Both the position numbers and the translations under genes were made by a program. The notes under the pieces were generated by a model. That model saw nothing but the letters and a program-made list of their open reading frames with translations, did no database searches and was not told where the DNA came from. From Oscillospiraceae bacterium (GTDB lineage Bacteria; Bacillota; Clostridia; Oscillospirales; Oscillospiraceae): 40,859 nucleotides of DNA. The stretch spans positions 1 to 40,859 of the forward strand of contig JAIKVS010000049.1 of assembly GCA_024685535.1 (NCBI GenBank), in the 5' to 3' direction. Below, piece by piece: positions 1 through 9,451 of this stretch; within the stretch, counting starts at the first letter, position 1; each line of letters opens with the position of its first letter.

Positions 1-2707
1 ATTCTATGGCTTTCAGGCGGTTCGTTTTTCCGAACTCCTTTATTGCACGTTTCAGCAGTTTTACCAAGGCTTGATACTTTGTGTTCGGATAAGGTATCCG
101 TTTCAGCTTTTCTATAAACTCGTCGCTGAAAAGCATCTGAACGTCGTCAGTAGGCTGCTCGTCGAAATTGAACGACTTTCCGCTGTAAGTAGAACTAATC
201 GCTCTATCAACCAGCTCAGCCACATGCTGGTTCATCAAAGTCGCATCTGGCGTATCACCAGAAGTCATTTTGAAGATAACGGATCTCACGCAGAGGAAGT
301 AATGCAGCTGTTCGACCTCATGCGCCGTTATTGCATCGTGGCCAATGCAAACATCAAACGCCTTCTTGCAGCGCAGGGTGAATCCCATAAAATTATCTTT
401 CCGGGCTTTCTCTGCAAGAACATATTCAACGCCTTTTTGAATGATCGTCAGTCTCTCAAGCGGAGAAATATTCTCCGTGAAGAACGCACTATAATCGTAC
501 CCGTGCATCAGCTCTATGATGCGATCCAAGAAATCTTTGAAAACCACCAGCGAAGTATCAACGCCATTTATAGGTGTAATGTCGCCGTTGTAGAGTTTCA
601 TGGCAGTCAGGATTGCGCCTTCAAGCCCAATATAGTCGACGATGAGACCTTCCTTCTTGCCTTTGAACACACGGTTTACACGGGAAATTGTCTGGATCAG
701 ATTGTGGGTCTCGACAGGCTTATCCAAATACATAGTGTCCATCGAAGGTACATCGAATCCGGTGATCCACATATCGACAACGATTGCAATTTTCAGGTTT
801 GATTTATTATCCTTAAATGCCCGTGCATAGGCTTTACGGGTCTTCGAATCACCGATAACTGCCGTCATCTCAGCAGGGTCATTTTTGCCGTTAGTACAAA
901 CGAGCATGACTTTTTCGATTTCGATGGAGTCTCTGTCGATGGCGGTGCCCTCATACTCCGGAGCGCATTTACGCTTAACAAACCACTCTGGTCGCAGGGC
1001 TTTGATCTTGTTATAGACGGTCCACGCTATTTCACGGTCATAGCAGACGAACATGGCCTTACCATTTACCGTGGCGTGTTCTTCACAGCGTTTTTCATAA
1101 TGCCAAATGAAATGGCGAACCACGATATCGAGACGGTCCGAATTGCCGAGAATGATCTTCAGGTTGGTCATGTCTTTCTTGGACTTCTCGATCTGGTATT
1201 CGTTTGCACCGGCTTCTGCCTGTAAGCGATAATACTCGTCACAGGCCTGTGCCATTTTCTCATCCAGCTGAACTTCACGAGGACCGGGCAGACGTGCAAT
1301 TCCGACTGTAGAGCCATCATCAAGGGACTGTTTCATTGTGTACTGAACGACGACTTTTCCAAATACTCTCAGTGTGGCGTCAACCGGTGTTCCGGTAAAG
1401 CCTACATAGGTAGCGTTCGGGAAAGAGTCTCTCAGGTACTTTGCAAAGCCATATGTCTTTTTGGCATCGCTCTTCGAGATAACATATTTGGCCTCTGTAT
1501 TCGTCTGGGTACGATGGGCCTCATCAGAGATACAGATGATGTTATTTCTCCGGCTAAGAAGGCTGATGTCCTCAGAAAACTTCTGAATTGTCATCAGGTA
1601 GATGCCGCCGCTCTCAATATCAGCCAACTTTTCAAGGAGTTTCTTCCTGTTTGCGATACTTACAGAGTTCTCATCGACGAGATACTCTTTTGCGTTTTCA
1701 AAGTCATCCGAGAGCTGCTCATCCAGATCATTTCGGTCAGTCAGCAGGATAATGGTCGGTTTATGCAGTTCCAAAGACATCGTGAGTCTCTTGGCAAGGA
1801 ACAGCATCGTATAGGATTTACCGCAGCCGGTTGCTCCCCAGTATGTACCACCTTTGCCGCTGCCGGTTCCGTACTCCTTGAGGATATTGGCATACATTTT
1901 CTCTGCGCCATAGTACTGGTAATACTTGGGCAGAATCAAAAGATTGCTGTCGCTTTGATCCGGGAAATAGACATAGTTGTGGAGGATGTTCAGGAGCGTC
2001 CTGTGTGCAAATAATCCACTGATAAGGACGTGAATCGAATCAATACCGTCTGCATTGTTGTAGTCCTCTCCGTTCGTCGAGTTCCACTTAAAGTAAAACT
2101 CGTAGCTGCTAAACAGAGAGCCATATCGGGTGTTGGCCCCGTCGCTAATAACATTGATAAAGTCAAACTTCATCAACGACGGGATGTCCTGAGAATAGCG
2201 AATGTGAGTCTGATCGTAGGCGTCAGCAATCGAGACTGTCTCATCTGCTGGATTCTTCAGTTCAAACACCGACACAGGGATGCCATTAATAAACAGAACT
2301 ATATCCGGACGGCGATTGTGGTACTCCTCAAACTCGAACTGGTTGACTGCCTTAAATATATTGATCATTTCGGCGTCCGGGCCGAACTCAAAGAAGTCGA
2401 TGAACTGATCAGTGCCGTCATCCCGGTGAAGAACATATCCACGGGAAAGTAGCTTGTACGTCTCTTTCATGGATCTGTACAAGGACTGATTCGAGTAGCT
2501 GGTGATATAGGAGATCAGGGTGTGCAGTTCATCGTCCGAAAAGTAACCGTACTTCCGATTCAGATATTCCTGAAAATCCGCCCGAAGGATTACATCGTCC
2601 TTTTCACGATGAATGTCATATCCGCACTCATACTCCCAGCCACAGTTTTCAAGCAGCTCAAGGACGGCCAGTTCATAGTCGTTTTCATAGTATTTGAAAT
2701 TTGCCAT
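1..2707 (-). CDS. hsdR: Type I restriction endonuclease subunit R (HsdR), 3' end truncated by window edge
   Basis: Own reading of the minus strand; the ORF track omits it because it has no stop in the window. ATG at 2707, begins MANFKYYENDYELAVLELLENCGWEYECGYDIHREKDDVILR. Walker A GATGCGKSYTM near 1810-1840, DEAH-type motif ICISDEAHRTQT near 1505-1540. Frame still open at nt 2 (LLKRAIKEFGKTNRLKAIE). Confidence 0.95.
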   Translation of the reverse strand, partial: MANFKYYENDYELAVLELLENCGWEYECGYDIHREKDDVILRADFQEYLNRKYGYFSDDELHTLISYITSYSNQSLYRSMKETYKLLSRGYVLHRDDGTDQFIDFFEFGPDAEMINIFKAVNQFEFEEYHNRRPDIVLFINGIPVSVFELKNPADETVSIADAYDQTHIRYSQDIPSLMKFDFINVISDGANTRYGSLFSSYEFYFKWNSTNGEDYNNADGIDSIHVLISGLFAHRTLLNILHNYVYFPDQSDSNLLILPKYYQYYGAEKMYANILKEYGTGSGKGGTYWGATGCGKSYTMLFLAKRLTMSLELHKPTIILLTDRNDLDEQLSDDFENAKEYLVDENSVSIANRKKLLEKLADIESGGIYLMTIQKFSEDISLLSRRNNIICISDEAHRTQTNTEAKYVISKSDAKKTYGFAKYLRDSFPNATYVGFTGTPVDATLRVFGKVVVQYTMKQSLDDGSTVGIARLPGPREVQLDEKMAQACDEYYRLQAEAGANEYQIEKSKKDMTNLKIILGNSDRLDIVVRHFIWHYEKRCEEHATVNGKAMFVCYDREIAWTVYNKIKALRPEWFVKRKCAPEYEGTAIDRDSIEIEKVMLVCTNGKNDPAEMTAVIGDSKTRKAYARAFKDNKSNLKIAIVVDMWITGFDVPSMDTMYLDKPVETHNLIQTISRVNRVFKGKKEGLIVDYIGLEGAILTAMKLYNGDITPINGVDTSLVVFKDFLDRIIELMHGYDYSAFFTENISPLERLTIIQKGVEYVLAEKARKDNFMGFTLRCKKAFDVCIGHDAITAHEVEQLHYFLCVRSVIFKMTSGDTPDATLMNQHVAELVDRAISSTYSGKSFNFDEQPTDDVQMLFSDEFIEKLKRIPYPNTKYQALVKLLKRAIKEFGKTNRLKAIE

Positions 2708-2708
2708 T

Positions 2709-3836
2709 TTATTGGCCTCCGTCCTCGATTGATCCTCTTACCAGTACAGGACAGATCCTGTTTTGCATGTCTGATAATCGCTCAACAATTTGCATTCTAG
2801 TTTTGAACGAATTGAAGATACTGACAATATTCCTCTGTATATCAACAGTGGGAAGCGGAATCTCAAACCGTCCTAAGTCTTCAAGAGCAAGCACTTCCCG
2901 TGCGCTTCCCCACGAGTTAAAGCGGGCATATCTATCAAAGTCCCCACCTCGCATGAACATAAACATGTATTCTGGAATAATCTCATCGCTTTTAATTCTA
3001 AAAGAAACATAAGATGACGAAACAATATATGTTTCTGTACTGTCATTTAGAGCAATAGAGACTTTATCACCGTTTCGGGATGTAACCGTAACGTAGCAAA
3101 AATCATTAGGGCCAATTATCTTATACGGTCTCAAGGACACACCTTGCATATTTGCTTTTGTGTCAATAAATTTCTTTTCAATAGAAATTCCTCGCACGTC
3201 ATCAATGCCGTATTGTAAATCCTCATTCCTGTTGTCAGTAGGTTCGATAAACTCCGAAATGGCTCTTTTTTCTGTAGTTTTGATAAGCCACTTCATGTAG
3301 GAGTCACAAGTGATTTGCATCTGCTCAATGCCGCGAGTCATTGCATCAAGGTTTTCCTGCATCCCACGATAAATGTCCACATATTTCTTTTGTATCTGGG
3401 TATCAGGAATTTCAATCTCAACATCACAAAACACATTCCACTCCATCCCATCTCGAATCGATGAATCTGTGTGGAACCAGAAATATCGATCCCGCTCCTC
3501 AGACTTGAGAAGGATAAAGAAATATTCTTTTAAGATAATGGTTTCATCGGTGATCCTGAAGACTGTATAGGCTGGACTTACAATCTTGTTCTTTCCAGAG
3601 TGGTTCAATGCAATAGGAAGAACGACATCACGGCCCACATGCATCAGGTTACATGCAAAATAGTTCGGCGGAACCACCTTATATTTGCTCGTATCGGCTC
3701 CGACCTGTTTTGATGGCTCAAAGAATTCCTTGTCTCTATTGACTCCTGAAACATCGTTCACGGTCAGGTTAGGAATCCCGCAGGGCTCGCTATACAATTC
3801 TACGAATGATCCAATTTTTACCTTATTCAATCCCAT
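2709..3836 (-). CDS. hsdS: Type I restriction system specificity subunit S (HsdS)
   Basis: ORF 2709-3860; likely start is the internal Met at 3836 (MGLNKVKIGSFVELYSEPCG). Two target recognition domain-like halves separated by helical spacers; sits between hsdM and hsdR. Confidence 0.92.
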   Translation of the reverse strand: MGLNKVKIGSFVELYSEPCGIPNLTVNDVSGVNRDKEFFEPSKQVGADTSKYKVVPPNYFACNLMHVGRDVVLPIALNHSGKNKIVSPAYTVFRITDETIILKEYFFILLKSEERDRYFWFHTDSSIRDGMEWNVFCDVEIEIPDTQIQKKYVDIYRGMQENLDAMTRGIEQMQITCDSYMKWLIKTTEKRAISEFIEPTDNRNEDLQYGIDDVRGISIEKKFIDTKANMQGVSLRPYKIIGPNDFCYVTVTSRNGDKVSIALNDSTETYIVSSSYVSFRIKSDEIIPEYMFMFMRGGDFDRYARFNSWGSAREVLALEDLGRFEIPLPTVDIQRNIVSIFNSFKTRMQIVERLSDMQNRICPVLVRGSIEDGGQ

Positions 3837-5397
3837 AGCCGATACCCTCAAATGCAGCACGAAGGATCCCCTGCGAATGGTGCTCTTCAGCCATAATAGA
3901 TTTCATTTCAGCTTGTATACGATCCATCTCGGATTGGAAGTCAATGCTAAGATCACGATCTACAAACTCGATATACTTTGAGGGGACAAGACTCCAGTCC
4001 TTACTCCTGATTTCGTCCATCGTAGCCGAATAGCAAAACTCAGGGATATCGTGATATAGCGTTTCCCATTCGGGAGATTGCCAAGCAAACAGTGTTGAAG
4101 CGATTTTGCGTTTGTCTGCCTCTGTCAGGAGTACGTATCCGTCTTCATTTGCTTTTCCGTCGCCAAGCGTTCTGGCATCAATGAAGAGTATTTCGTTTTC
4201 ACGGTCCCGGAGAACGACTTCTTTATCATCTCGCTTTACTCGCTTACTCTTTTTGTGATTACCAACGATCCACAAGGTGACAGAAATATCCGTTGCATAG
4301 AACATTTCCCTCGGCAGCACGATGATTGCCTCAACCTTATGGTTTTCGATAAGCTGTTTCCGGATCTTGTATTCTTCAGAATCCGCACCAAGAGCACCGT
4401 TGGCCAGAAGGAAAGCCGCGGTGCCGTTATAGGATAGACGGGCCAGCATGTGAAGAATCCATGCATAGTTCGCATTACTTACAGGCGGCACCTCGTATCC
4501 GTCCCAACGGCGATCATTCCTAAGCTCATTTTCAGTTCGCCAGTCTTTGAGATTGAAGGGAGGATTCGCAAGAATGAAATCCGCACGAAGGTTTGGATGC
4601 TTGTCTGAAGTAAAAGTGGACGCGTCCATATCGCCCAAGTCGCAGTTCAGACCACGAATAGCTAAGTTCATTCTGGCTAGTTTGTAGGTCTTGTCGTTGG
4701 ACTCTTGACCATAAATTGTGATGTCTTTCTTATTGCCTTGATGCCGCTTGATGAACTCTGCACTCTGTACAAACATCCCGCCAGAACCACAACAGGGGTC
4801 GTACACCGACCCGGAGTAAGGCTGGATCAGCAAAGTCATAAGTTCGACGATATTGCCCGGAGTGTAGAACTCACCTTTTTCGGATTTTGCGGCAATGCAG
4901 AACTTTCTGAGGAAGTATTCATACACACGACCGATCACATCGTCAGACTCTTCTTGCGAATACTGAATGCGGTCGATCTCGTCAATAAGTGAAGAAAACT
5001 TTGATGGCTCTATATGAAGCGTGATGTAGAAGCCAATAGGAAGCGCACCCTTGAGAGTGGGATTATTCTTCTCCATGTTGCGGAAGGCATCGTCAATGTA
5101 GGTGAAGATCTTATTCGACTTGGAATTGTCCTTGATGTAATTCCAGCGGTCATTCTCTTCCAAGAAGAATACGTTGTCCTTGGAATAAAAGCGAGGATTA
5201 TCGATAAAGTCTGCCGTATCTTCGTCGGCCAGCAGTTTCTCTCGCTGTGCATTGAACTTGTCATACGCAAAGCGCAGGAACAACAAGCCCAAGACTACAT
5301 TCACATAATCCGTCGCTGTAACGCTGCCTCTCAGTTTATTACATGCATTCCACAGGCCAGCCTCAAGAGATACTTGCTTTTTTTCTGCTTTTGCCAT
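3823..5397 (-). CDS. hsdM: Type I restriction system DNA methyltransferase subunit M (HsdM)
   Basis: 524 aa. N6-adenine methyltransferase motifs: YDPCCGSGGMFVQSAEF (motif I) and ILANPPFN (NPPF motif IV). Strong RBS AGGAGG upstream of the ATG. Confidence 0.97.
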   Translation of the reverse strand: MAKAEKKQVSLEAGLWNACNKLRGSVTATDYVNVVLGLLFLRFAYDKFNAQREKLLADEDTADFIDNPRFYSKDNVFFLEENDRWNYIKDNSKSNKIFTYIDDAFRNMEKNNPTLKGALPIGFYITLHIEPSKFSSLIDEIDRIQYSQEESDDVIGRVYEYFLRKFCIAAKSEKGEFYTPGNIVELMTLLIQPYSGSVYDPCCGSGGMFVQSAEFIKRHQGNKKDITIYGQESNDKTYKLARMNLAIRGLNCDLGDMDASTFTSDKHPNLRADFILANPPFNLKDWRTENELRNDRRWDGYEVPPVSNANYAWILHMLARLSYNGTAAFLLANGALGADSEEYKIRKQLIENHKVEAIIVLPREMFYATDISVTLWIVGNHKKSKRVKRDDKEVVLRDRENEILFIDARTLGDGKANEDGYVLLTEADKRKIASTLFAWQSPEWETLYHDIPEFCYSATMDEIRSKDWSLVPSKYIEFVDRDLSIDFQSEMDRIQAEMKSIMAEEHHSQGILRAAFEGIGYGIE

Positions 5398-5432
5398 AAT
5401 CCAGTTCCTCCTGCTTATAAATAGCCTTTTTT

Positions 5433-5461
5433 ATAATATCACAAAAGCAGTCTGAGCTCAA
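5433..5461 (-). promoter_or_regulatory. Predicted sigma-70-type promoter of the hsdMSR operon
   Basis: Minus strand TTGAGC - 17 nt - TATTAT, then AGGAGG and ATG of hsdM. Confidence 0.65.
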
Positions 5462-5467
5462 TAAAAA

Positions 5468-5512
5468 AGCGGCAGACCAGGCAGGCTTTTTAAGCCGATC
5501 TGATCTGCCGCT
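5468..5512 (-). terminator. Intrinsic terminator reading leftward, just upstream of the hsd promoter
   Basis: Minus strand AGCGGCAGATCAGATCGGCTTAAAAAGCCTGCCTGGTCTGCCGCT followed by TTTTTTAT. 9-bp outer stem plus inner GGC/GCC pairing. Confidence 0.75.
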
Positions 5513-5592
5513 CTTATCATATTTACCCCACCCCCGGGCCTGGCTTAGAAAACTTACCCCCGGGGTAAAAATACAGGCTCTTTCAGCATTAA

Positions 5593-6432
5593 TTAATAAG
5601 ACTTTAGTTGGGTGAAGCGGATAATTTCTCTACATTCGTGAGGTCGATAGCCAAAAAAGCCCGAGTTTACGGGCTTTCTGGCGATTCTGTAAAAGCCGAA
5701 GATTCGATACTGAACGCCTGATATTGCTACAGTATGCATGAATCCAGAGCGGAGCATAACCGGATATACATTATTGTCTGAATAAAATTCAGTCTTTCTA
5801 CCAAGAAGCAGTGCACGAAGATATGGCACTGTATCTTCCGGAAACAAATCCTGTATCAGTCCGGCAACAGCATGACTGATATACTTTGAAGCCCAAGCAG
5901 CGTGAATTCCTTTTTTCAGATAAGTTATTTCAGAGGTAAGCAGCCCGGTAAGGAAAATACCCTTTGAGATGTCGCTTTCCGAAGCATTTGATCTGCTGCT
6001 GAACATTGATCTCATATTTGCGCTGAAACAGATCCTGTCCCCCGGTTCAAGCTTAGCTGTATTTTTATAATAATCATACAGAAGGGCTGTGCACTTTTGA
6101 CTATTCCCGTACAGCTTTACTCTTACTCTTGAATAGTTATCGTATTCCTCAGGATAATCAGAAACCAATGCTGTGAAGTTTTCAGAACACGAATATGTTT
6201 CCGCATTCTTTACTGCAGCTGAATTGTATAAAGAAAAATAAGTCAGTCCAAGGGAACTCATCAGAAAGAATAACTGCAGTAAAATGCCGATATCCTTTCT
6301 GACAGATAAACACAGAAGAAAGCAGATCAGCAGCGATCCTGCAAAAACAGGCCACATCAAGTGATCATACAAATAGTACGATATGATGATACCCGCAGCA
6401 AATGCGCCTGAGCCAACAGCTAGTTTTCTCAT
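5593..6432 (-). pseudogene. comEC: Truncated ComEC/Rec2 DNA-uptake channel protein: N-terminal part only, fused to an unrelated 38-aa tail
   Basis: 279-aa ORF. Hydrophobic N-terminus and OB-like region, then LRALLLGRKTEFYSDNNVYPVMLRSGFMHTVAISGVQ, matching the start of the ComEC competence domain. The remaining membrane domain and beta-lactamase-like domain are absent. From about nt 5710 the tail is YRIFGFYRIARKPVNSGFFGYRPHECREIIRFTQLKSY. Confidence 0.85.
5653..5677 (-). terminator. Intrinsic terminator located inside the chimeric tail of the broken comEC ORF
   Basis: Minus strand AAAGCCCG-TAAACT-CGGGCTTT followed by TTT; 8-bp stem plus U-tract. Confidence 0.7.
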
Positions 6433-6470: not shown

Positions 6471-6818
6471 TCAAACTATTTTTTCAGAGAGCTTTTCTCC
6501 GCCAATGAGATGGAAATGCAGATGCATAACGGTCTGTCCACCGTCAGCTCCGCAGTTATTAATTACTCTGTATCCGTTATCAAGTCCCATTTTCTTTGCT
6601 ATCTCGGGAACAGCCTCGAAACAGGCAGCTACAGAGGTCGAATTCACGGAATTGATCTCATCTGCGCATGCAATATGATCTTTCGGAACTATAATGATAT
6701 GTACAGGCGCTTGCGGATTGATGTCCTTGAATGCAAATACCTTCTCATTTTCAAATACAACAGAAGAAGGGATCTCACCTGCAATTATCTTACAGAACAG
6801 GCAGTTTTCGTCTCTCAT
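6471..6818 (-). CDS. HIT (histidine triad) family nucleotide hydrolase/transferase
   Basis: 115 aa, CLFCKIIAGEIPSSVVFENEKVFAFKDINPQAPVHIIIVPKDH and triad HLHFHLIGG. Confidence 0.95.
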   Translation of the reverse strand: MRDENCLFCKIIAGEIPSSVVFENEKVFAFKDINPQAPVHIIIVPKDHIACADEINSVNSTSVAACFEAVPEIAKKMGLDNGYRVINNCGADGGQTVMHLHFHLIGGEKLSEKIV

Positions 6819-9451
6819 TTAACACCTCCGAGAATTACTTCAGCTTCTTTTAACGCGTCGGGAATTTTATCTATAAGCGGTCCGCCGCCCATTGCTGAAT
6901 CGGGTTTTCCGCCACCCTTGCCTCCTACTGTCTGTGAAAGCTGTTTTATGATCGAACCGGCGTTGAAACCGGCTTCAACAGCTTTTTTGCCGCAGGTACA
7001 GAACAGCACAGCCTTATCATCGTTTCTGACCGCTATTACCGCAACAACACTTTCATCTGCAGATCTCAGACTGTCGCCGATTTTTCTGACGTTCTCCACC
7101 GGCATTGCATCGAATACGGTTCTAACAAGCTTAACGGGACCTATCTGAACTGCTTCATCAATAAGCTTGCCTGCACTTCCGGCTGATTCCTTATCTTTAT
7201 ACTTTTCAATAACTCTTTTTGCTTCCCTAAGTTCATTGTCAAGCTGCACGAATCTGCCTTCAAGCTTATCCGGGGCACATTTTGTAAGTGAAGAGAGACT
7301 TTTCAGGACGGCAGTCCGTTCGTTGAAAAGACCAAGAGCTCTAACACCGGTAACCGCCTCTATCCTTCTTACACCGGATGCTACAGAACCCTCAGATATA
7401 ATGTGGAAAGATCCTATCTTCGCAGAGTTGGATACATGTGTTCCTCCGCACAGTTCAGAGCTGTAGCCGGCGACTTTCACGACCCTCACGGTCGCTCCGT
7501 ATTTCTCACCAAACAGCGCAGTAGCTCCGCTCTTCCTCGCATCATCAAGGCTCATGACTTCGGTATCAACTTTATAGTCACTGAGCACAGCTGCATTAAC
7601 TTTCTTTTCAGTTTCTCTCAGTTCATCTTCGGTCATTGGAGAAAAATGCGCAAAATCGAATCTCAGGAAGTCCGGCTCAACCAGGGAACCTGCCTGATGT
7701 ACATGATCACCAAGGATCTCTCTGAGGGCTTTGTGGAGAATATGAGTGGCTGTATGTGCTCTGGCTACGGCAGCTCTTCTGTCCGTATCAAAAGATACCG
7801 TTACTTTATCGCCAACTCTGATGTGACCTGAGGAAACTGTTCCGTAATGCATGTATTTTCCGCCGTTGTTTTTCTGGACGTTCTCGACCTTGAATTCGCC
7901 TCTTATGCCGGCTAGAATCCCGGTATCATTAACCTGGCCGCCCATTTCAGCGTACATAACGGTTTTATCAAGAACTATTATTGCTGATTGGCCGGAACTT
8001 ACTTCATTAGCAAACTCATTATCGAAAACAATTGCCAATACTTCCGAAGCAGTCTCAAAGTTATCGTATCCGCAGAAAACAGTATCCGGGATCTGCTTCC
8101 CGAATTCTATTCCGGCCCATCCGAGATCACCAAGTTTTTTTCTTGCTTCTCTGGCTCTCTCACGCTGTTCGTTCATAAGTTGCTCAAATGCGTTTAAATC
8201 TACTGTCATTCCGTTATCCGAACACATCTCTGATGTTAGATCGATGGGGAATCCGTAAGTATCGTAAAGCTTGAACGCATCGCTCCCTGAAAACACGGTC
8301 TCGCCGTTTTTCAGATGATCAGCCATAAGATCTGCAAATATCTTCAGGCCGCCGTCTATGGTCTTTGAAAAGCTGTTTTCCTCTGACTCGATAACATTCT
8401 CTATATAGCGCTGCTTTTCTCTAAGTTCAGGGTACTGACATTCATTCTCATGGACCACAGTATCAACTATTCTGTGGAGGAAGGGCTCATTAACACCCAG
8501 CAGTTTTCCATGTCTTGCAGCACGTCGAAGAAGTCTGCGGAGGACATATCCCCTGCCTTCATTTGATGGCAGGATACCGTCGCAGATCATAAAAACTGAA
8601 CTTCTTATATGGTCTGTAATAACGCGCAGCGAAACATCCGACTTAAGGGCCTTTCCGTAGTAGGCACCTGTTATCTCACTGACTTTTTCTGTGATATTCA
8701 TCACAGTGTCCACTTCAAACAGAGAATTAACCTCCTGGCATACGACAGCCAGTCTCTCAAGCCCCATACCTGTGTCAATATTCTTCTGTTTCAGCTCTGT
8801 ATAGTTTCCTTTGCCGTCGTTATCAAACTGTGAAAAAACGTTGTTCCAGACTTCTATGTATCTGTCGCAGTCACAGCCCACAGTGCAGTCAGGCCTTCCG
8901 CATCCGAACTTCTCTCCACGGTCGTAGTAGATCTCCGAACATGGTCCGCAGGGACCTGAACCATGTTCCCAGAAATTATCTTCCTTACCGAACCGGAAAA
9001 TCTTTTCTGCAGGTATGCCTATATCATCGTGCCAAAGATTCCATGCCTCGTCATCATCCTTATATACAGATGGATAGAGTCTTTCCGGATCCAGTCCAAC
9101 CCAGTCGGGAGACGTGAGGAACTCCCAGCTCCATTCGATCGCTTCCTTTTTGAAGTAATCTCCGAACGAGAAGTTACCCAGCATTTCAAAGTATGTTCCA
9201 TGCCTCGCTGTATGACCGACGTTTTCGATATCTCCGGTCCTTATACACTTCTGACATGTGCATACCCTGTGTCTCGGAGGCTCTTCCTCACCCTTGAACC
9301 AGGGTTTCATAGGGGTCATTCCGGCATTGATCAGAAGTACTGATTTATCATTCTGCGGAACAAGTGAAAAACTGGGTAATCTGAGATGGCCCTTCGTCTC
9401 AAAAAAGCTGAGGAACATCTCTCTCAATTCATTAAGTCCATATTTTTTCAT
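6815..9451 (-). CDS. alaS: Alanine--tRNA ligase
   Basis: 878 aa. Class II aaRS core (HRVCTCQKCIRTGDIENVGHTARHGTYFEMLGNFSFGDYFK), editing domain HTATHILHKALRE and SSELCGGTHV, C-terminal GGKGGGKPDSAMGGG. Confidence 0.98.
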   Translation of the reverse strand: MKKYGLNELREMFLSFFETKGHLRLPSFSLVPQNDKSVLLINAGMTPMKPWFKGEEEPPRHRVCTCQKCIRTGDIENVGHTARHGTYFEMLGNFSFGDYFKKEAIEWSWEFLTSPDWVGLDPERLYPSVYKDDDEAWNLWHDDIGIPAEKIFRFGKEDNFWEHGSGPCGPCSEIYYDRGEKFGCGRPDCTVGCDCDRYIEVWNNVFSQFDNDGKGNYTELKQKNIDTGMGLERLAVVCQEVNSLFEVDTVMNITEKVSEITGAYYGKALKSDVSLRVITDHIRSSVFMICDGILPSNEGRGYVLRRLLRRAARHGKLLGVNEPFLHRIVDTVVHENECQYPELREKQRYIENVIESEENSFSKTIDGGLKIFADLMADHLKNGETVFSGSDAFKLYDTYGFPIDLTSEMCSDNGMTVDLNAFEQLMNEQRERAREARKKLGDLGWAGIEFGKQIPDTVFCGYDNFETASEVLAIVFDNEFANEVSSGQSAIIVLDKTVMYAEMGGQVNDTGILAGIRGEFKVENVQKNNGGKYMHYGTVSSGHIRVGDKVTVSFDTDRRAAVARAHTATHILHKALREILGDHVHQAGSLVEPDFLRFDFAHFSPMTEDELRETEKKVNAAVLSDYKVDTEVMSLDDARKSGATALFGEKYGATVRVVKVAGYSSELCGGTHVSNSAKIGSFHIISEGSVASGVRRIEAVTGVRALGLFNERTAVLKSLSSLTKCAPDKLEGRFVQLDNELREAKRVIEKYKDKESAGSAGKLIDEAVQIGPVKLVRTVFDAMPVENVRKIGDSLRSADESVVAVIAVRNDDKAVLFCTCGKKAVEAGFNAGSIIKQLSQTVGGKGGGKPDSAMGGGPLIDKIPDALKEAEVILGGVK

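Follow-up and report, generated by a model that had tools for sequence, protein, structure and literature searches.

Prophages that occupy competence genes are the best-known mobile elements guarding against curing by transformation (PMC12637031), and the examples in the literature that we searched come from streptococci, Listeria and a few others. In the case of the pneumococcal comYC/comGC and the Listeria comK phages, the resident phage silences transformation and excision restores the gene (PMC12637031, PMC10383233), but these prophages use other target genes and are analogues only. Closer to the locus described here are phi1207.3, phi10394.4 and their relatives phi29854 and phi-SsuSH0918_comEC, streptococcal prophages that likewise lie in comEC, a gene whose disruption has been discussed (PMC12637031, PMC11472951). 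The right end of phi1207.3 carries two overlapping serine recombinases beside the lysis cassette, and the phage also has umuC, DNA polymerase A, an SNF2 helicase, metK and restriction-modification (RM) cargo (PMC4260502). Thus far, comEC as a phage target, with tandem serine recombinases at the side, is already known. A further group for comparison are the Ca. Heliusvirales, temperate phages of gut Firmicutes recovered from human stool; the Ca. Heliusviridae signature comprises nine genes (DUF2800, DUF2815, DNA pol I, VRR-NUC, SNF2 helicase, terminase, portal, protease and capsid), and the word comEC is absent from the founding paper (PMC9226167). In the open-access literature we found no paper on the comEC site described below in Oscillospiraceae or Lachnospiraceae.

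The window analysed here is an entire contig (C155; 40,859 bp) of an Oscillospiraceae metagenome-assembled genome (MAG; G000; 1.98 Mb in 254 contigs, 81 % complete), and its left end falls inside hsdR. With a probability of roughly 0.8, nt 1–5716 would represent one end (attL) of a temperate phage that has integrated into comEC, using a pair-type serine recombinase and carrying hsdMSR in a defence slot.

Results

On the minus strand of the window alaS is followed by a HIT-family gene and then by a 279 aa ORF (6432 to 5593), and the order of the HIT-family gene and alaS upstream of comEC is kept in three other genomes: G002, RUG12129 and RGIG4485 (G024), the last from roe deer omasum.

6471–9451, minus strand: host flank, assigned from gene order; HIT-family gene (6471–6818) and alaS (6815–9451)
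5717–6432, minus strand: comEC 5' part, residues 1–239, host DNA up to the crossover, from tblastn and alignment
5717–5718, no strand: probable GG crossover dinucleotide within the Gly codon of AISG (attL), as predicted for the window
5593–5716, minus strand: 40 aa element-derived tail of the truncated comEC ORF; a similar in-frame tail is found at three other junctions

Residues 1–239 of the 279 aa ORF are ComEC. A tblastn search of 40 relatives gave matches in 22 other genomes, of which 21 belong to the same genus (E 1e-30 to 1e-16) and one, with a weak match, does not; most of these matches sit in open frames of 756–859 aa. In an alignment of 20 sequences the homology stops exactly after HTVAISG; every intact relative in the alignment runs on past the break as VSG[ML]H, and in the window the resemblance to ComEC is lost at the Gly of AISG|H (codon at nt 5718–5716). 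The split of comEC at this motif is real. The preliminary description had placed the break at about nt 5710–5712, followed by a 38 aa tail unlike ComEC; ComEC homology does end in the AISG motif, but the exact position is nt 5717–5718, about 6 nt away, and the tail, although it has no match in Pfam or NCBIfam, is 40 aa long. GC content shows no shift between element and host. Across the family, comEC was detected in 365 of 401 genomes. Four other apparent splits (G201, G351, G142 and G304) were rejected as assembly breaks, all four stopping at contig ends, and none of these four partial cases, when opened, had foreign sequence at its comEC end.

A search with the 297–351 bp beyond the junction led to RGIG4485, where the matching stretch (75 % DNA identity) again adjoins a truncated comEC directly. 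When 84,980 genomes were scanned with a pattern for the end sequence, RGIG4485 came up together with one further genome, RUG12129, in which comEC is cut at the same codon; the gene is broken at the identical nucleotide in the window and in both siblings. With a profile built on the 3' portion of comEC, the missing halves of the siblings were located on separate contigs beside holA (C2:88265–89764 in RUG12129, C146:12680–14179 in RGIG4485). When the flanks are joined at GG, RUG12129 yields a gapless ComEC of 769 aa (92.8 % to G007) and RGIG4485 one of 757 aa (66 % to G020); in both genomes attL, attR and the reconstructed attB have no bases in common except GG. The intact G007 sequence GTCTCGGGGATGCAC is compatible with a G core of 2–3 bp, and a core of 2–3 bp is the expectation for a serine recombinase. 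The attP arm before GG in RGIG4485 is unlike that of RUG12129. Two earlier proposals, that the junction is an att site marking one end of an integrated element and that precise excision would restore comEC, are thus borne out by the siblings, where the same end abuts a cut comEC and the halves rejoin into an intact frame; the 3' half belonging to the window itself is missing.

The site is not that of the phi1207.3 type. The window is broken after residue 239, whereas the streptococcal site lies about 1 kb further downstream; the streptococcal phages use a GA dinucleotide and leave about 580–594 nt of comEC downstream, compared with about 1.5 kb in the siblings. The precedent first cited for this locus therefore holds for the gene but not for the more 3' position, and the relatives that share the codon are Ca. 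Heliusvirales.

On the element side of the junction lies a sequence that the three insertions have in common.

1–5716, no strand: integrated element (attL end) that runs past the contig, best interpreted as a prophage; a matching end lies beside comEC in RGIG4485 and RUG12129
5413–5716, minus strand: conserved terminal sequence of about 300 bp between att site and cargo, defined by DNA identity across the three genomes
5519–5572, minus strand: terminator-like inverted repeat TTTTTACCCC..GGTGGGGTAAA, inner TTACCCCGGGGGTAA, near-invariant in four elements
5465–5515, minus strand: long hairpin AAGAGCGGCAGATC..GGTCTGCCGCTTTT, a probable terminator, nearer the cargo

These ends of about 300 bp share 71–82 % DNA identity, compared with 58–64 % for the adjoining comEC 5' parts, the pattern to be expected where the end belongs to the element and the DNA beside it to each host. 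An inverted repeat in the end sequence, TTTTTACCCCGGGGGTAA..GGTGGGGTAA, is near-invariant, and within 5413–5600 of the window TTACCCCGGGGGTAA and the matching GGTGGGGTAA are near-invariant in four elements. Our best guess is that the end sequence serves as a terminator shielding the cargo from host transcription. A conserved RNA fold was considered and rejected, one compensatory pair in four sequences offering no useful covariation, and a search of Rfam gave no credible RNA family at the junction. Searched as DNA, the element end of the window matched nothing in IMG/VR or, by blastn, in the collection of GenBank phages, a point of difference from the Heliusvirales.

The fourth copy of the end, shared in part over the approximately 300 bp, is in genome G129, where it lies antisense in a rhamnosidase-like gene, so that the element end is not strictly tied to comEC. 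The cargo of this element (G129:C3; L040, 2280–3900) is one 149 aa ORF, the long hairpin follows the cargo rather than preceding it, and an AraC C-terminal fragment lies about 0.4 kb further on. The G129 element is possibly a deleted relative or marks a secondary site. By eye, Cas9 (1114 aa) and Cas1 were also noted in G129 (L039, 10370–14621), about 15–20 kb from the element end.

Beyond the conserved end lie three genes.

3823–5397, minus strand: hsdM, type I methyltransferase, first cargo gene (PF02384 1e-90, PF12161; PADLOC MTase_I 1.5e-134)
2709–3860, minus strand: hsdS, type I specificity subunit (PF01420; PADLOC Specificity_I 1e-100)
2–2707, minus strand: hsdR, type I restriction subunit, 902 aa, cut by the contig end (TIGR00348 3.6e-134; PADLOC REase_I 4e-246)

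HsdM, HsdS and HsdR encoded together constitute a type I RM system, with M and S full and R nearly complete, and its subunits are those of type I RM systems elsewhere, the difference being its placement inside the attL of an integrated element. The operon had been described as starting some 200 nt past the ORF, and the hsdM start at 5397 is indeed 195 nt beyond the stop. After the junction RGIG4485 has a different type I restriction gene and RUG12129 a Pbe-type cassette (PbeA 8e-196, PbeC 5e-85), and the first cargo consists of defence genes in all three comEC insertions. Other ORFs near such cargo were recorded in passing. At L034 (3328–5195) two ORFs without a Pfam, NCBIfam or PADLOC match precede Pbe-type genes, the first appearing radical-SAM-like by eye (CxxxCxxC). 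At L053 (5883–7621; G437) ORFs of 370 and 208 aa lie between the recombinases and attR, the former with a weak JukB match only (2e-4); this may be a second defence slot at attR.

RUG12129 is the only sibling with both sides of the insertion in long contigs. Upstream of the comEC 3' half it has two ORFs annotated without a function, two overlapping serine recombinases (476 and 515 aa; PHROG integrase 1e-130 and 4e-107), an endolysin, a holin and tail genes. On the attL side, past the Pbe-type cassette, follow recA, a CI-like repressor, a UmuC-like polymerase, an SNF2 helicase, a DNA polymerase, a primase and metK. The lysis, tail, repressor and replication genes are spread over two contigs, and the assembly gap holds the structural genes. 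Judged by this gene content, the comEC insertion of RUG12129 is a prophage. RUG12129 shares with phi1207.3 the tandem overlapping recombinases by the lysis cassette and also polA, SNF2, metK and umuC, a layout seen in RUG12129 only.

The comEC 3' half and the serine recombinase that had been predicted for the element are thus both present in a sibling, but the other end is missing from the genome of the window itself. Of the element, the window shows cargo genes only, with no recombinase, attR or phage gene of its own element before the contig ends in hsdR, and the MAG has no close match to the recombinase or polymerase of RUG12129 and no PF10991 match. These observations would also suit a non-phage element (a satellite, an ICE or a defence island) sharing its attL end and recombinase specificity with comEC phages. 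However, the one sibling in which both sides are long has lysis, tail, repressor and replication genes, the end in the window is 82 % identical to that of RUG12129, and the MAG is only 81 % complete; we consider a non-phage element unlikely. The DNA polymerase of the MAG that matches that of RUG12129 does so at only 32 % and may be the host's. One distant serine recombinase (44 % identity) lies on contig C217 (3.2 kb), which is without comEC, and was rejected as the integrase of this element because it is not beside comEC.

The MAG yielded neither a PF03772 match nor a comEC 3' half, and holA, which comes next after comEC in the siblings, was not found in it either. The sole match to the comEC-C profile is a lone metallo-hydrolase ORF of 309 aa at C57, and a second comEC was accordingly rejected; a full-length copy elsewhere in the genome, named at the outset as a result that would speak against the split, was not found in this 81 % complete assembly. 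The lack of a second comEC half and of a recombinase belonging to this element might reflect an old insertion in which comEC and most of the element have degenerated, so that excision is no longer possible. We regard such a decayed remnant as improbable: the open frame of the 5' half is uninterrupted, the hsd genes show no damage as far as the contig reaches, and the att site is clean. That the contig is chimeric or a misbinned fragment, in which the assembler joined an RM operon to comEC, could be suspected of a MAG in 254 contigs from which the other comEC half is absent, but is scarcely credible, because the junction recurs to the nucleotide, with the same kind of end sequence and beside species-specific comEC, in two other, independently assembled MAGs, which all but rules out misassembly or chance.

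Discussion

The recombinases of Ca. Heliusvirales are 50–60 % identical to those of RUG12129, and several Ca. Heliusvirales records hold a ComEC 3' half near one end. In three of them (Coprococcus phage NatCom_10489, PV036424, 50–1669; Agathobacter phage NatCom_6238, PV036418, 50–1639; Coprococcus phage NatCom_29765, PV036442, 10898–12481; our L093, L095 and L096) a CDS of about 530–540 aa deposited as 'hypothetical protein' is the ComEC 3' half and has the same codon, SG|[VML]H, as its start; the one CDS compared with Pfam and NCBIfam was identified as ComEC by both. The records reveal the attachment site because this host flank was included. The attP arm of Heliusvirales (..CCCAGACGGG|) is near-identical to that of RUG12129 (..CCCCGAGACGGG|), and as in RUG12129 the tandem overlapping serine recombinases adjoin the endolysin. 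The Heliusvirales differ in their hosts, which are Lachnospiraceae from human stool, and in the longer cargo between recombinases and attR. On the attR side of PV036424 (1831–9333) a run of some five unknown ORFs on the opposite strand and one further ORF, weakly matching DrmA (6e-10), are candidate defence cargo. Among the Heliusviridae signature genes, the DNA polymerase and SNF2 helicase are present in RUG12129 and PF10991 was not found, the structural genes falling in the assembly gap. In IMG/VR the comEC 3' half had only two weak matches, over the metallo-lactamase part.

Our working model is that a serine recombinase pair, seen in RUG12129 and predicted for the window, joins attP to attB by a crossover at GG, within the codon for the Gly of the invariant ComEC motif VSG[ML]H. 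Integration would split comEC after residue 239, so that the DNA-uptake channel would be lost while the phage is resident, and excision would rejoin the gene exactly. On the phage side of attL, a conserved terminator-like sequence of about 300 bp would be followed by a slot for interchangeable defence cargo, filled in the window by the type I RM operon hsdMSR. By analogy with RUG12129, the element of the window is probably itself a phage, and its recombinase is probably of the same pair type. Loss of ComEC abolishes DNA uptake in other species, and we infer that a resident phage makes its lysogen non-transformable, that the phage does excise and that it benefits from the block on transformation.

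More tentatively, and with slightly less than even confidence, we propose a gut phage lineage for which VSG|MH, the most conserved ComEC motif, is attB in at least two bacterial families, and which has, just inside attL and behind the terminator-like sequence, a slot where defence systems are exchanged (type I RM, another type I system or a Pbe-type one). Insertion would then have two effects: DNA uptake would be closed, so that transformation could not remove the prophage, and the host would gain a defence against other phages.

What is new is the observation of one conserved codon at which comEC is repeatedly cut, together with a variable defence slot. The strategy of the competence-gene prophages would extend to phages of rumen Oscillospiraceae and human gut Lachnospiraceae, where it has gone unremarked in the deposits and is directed at one codon of a universal gene. 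The comEC site permits a systematic search for such phages and gives a way to ask whether gut Firmicutes, most of them uncultured, can be transformed in the first place. The defence cassette just inside attL, different in each sibling, is a small and well-defined region in which to look for anti-phage systems.
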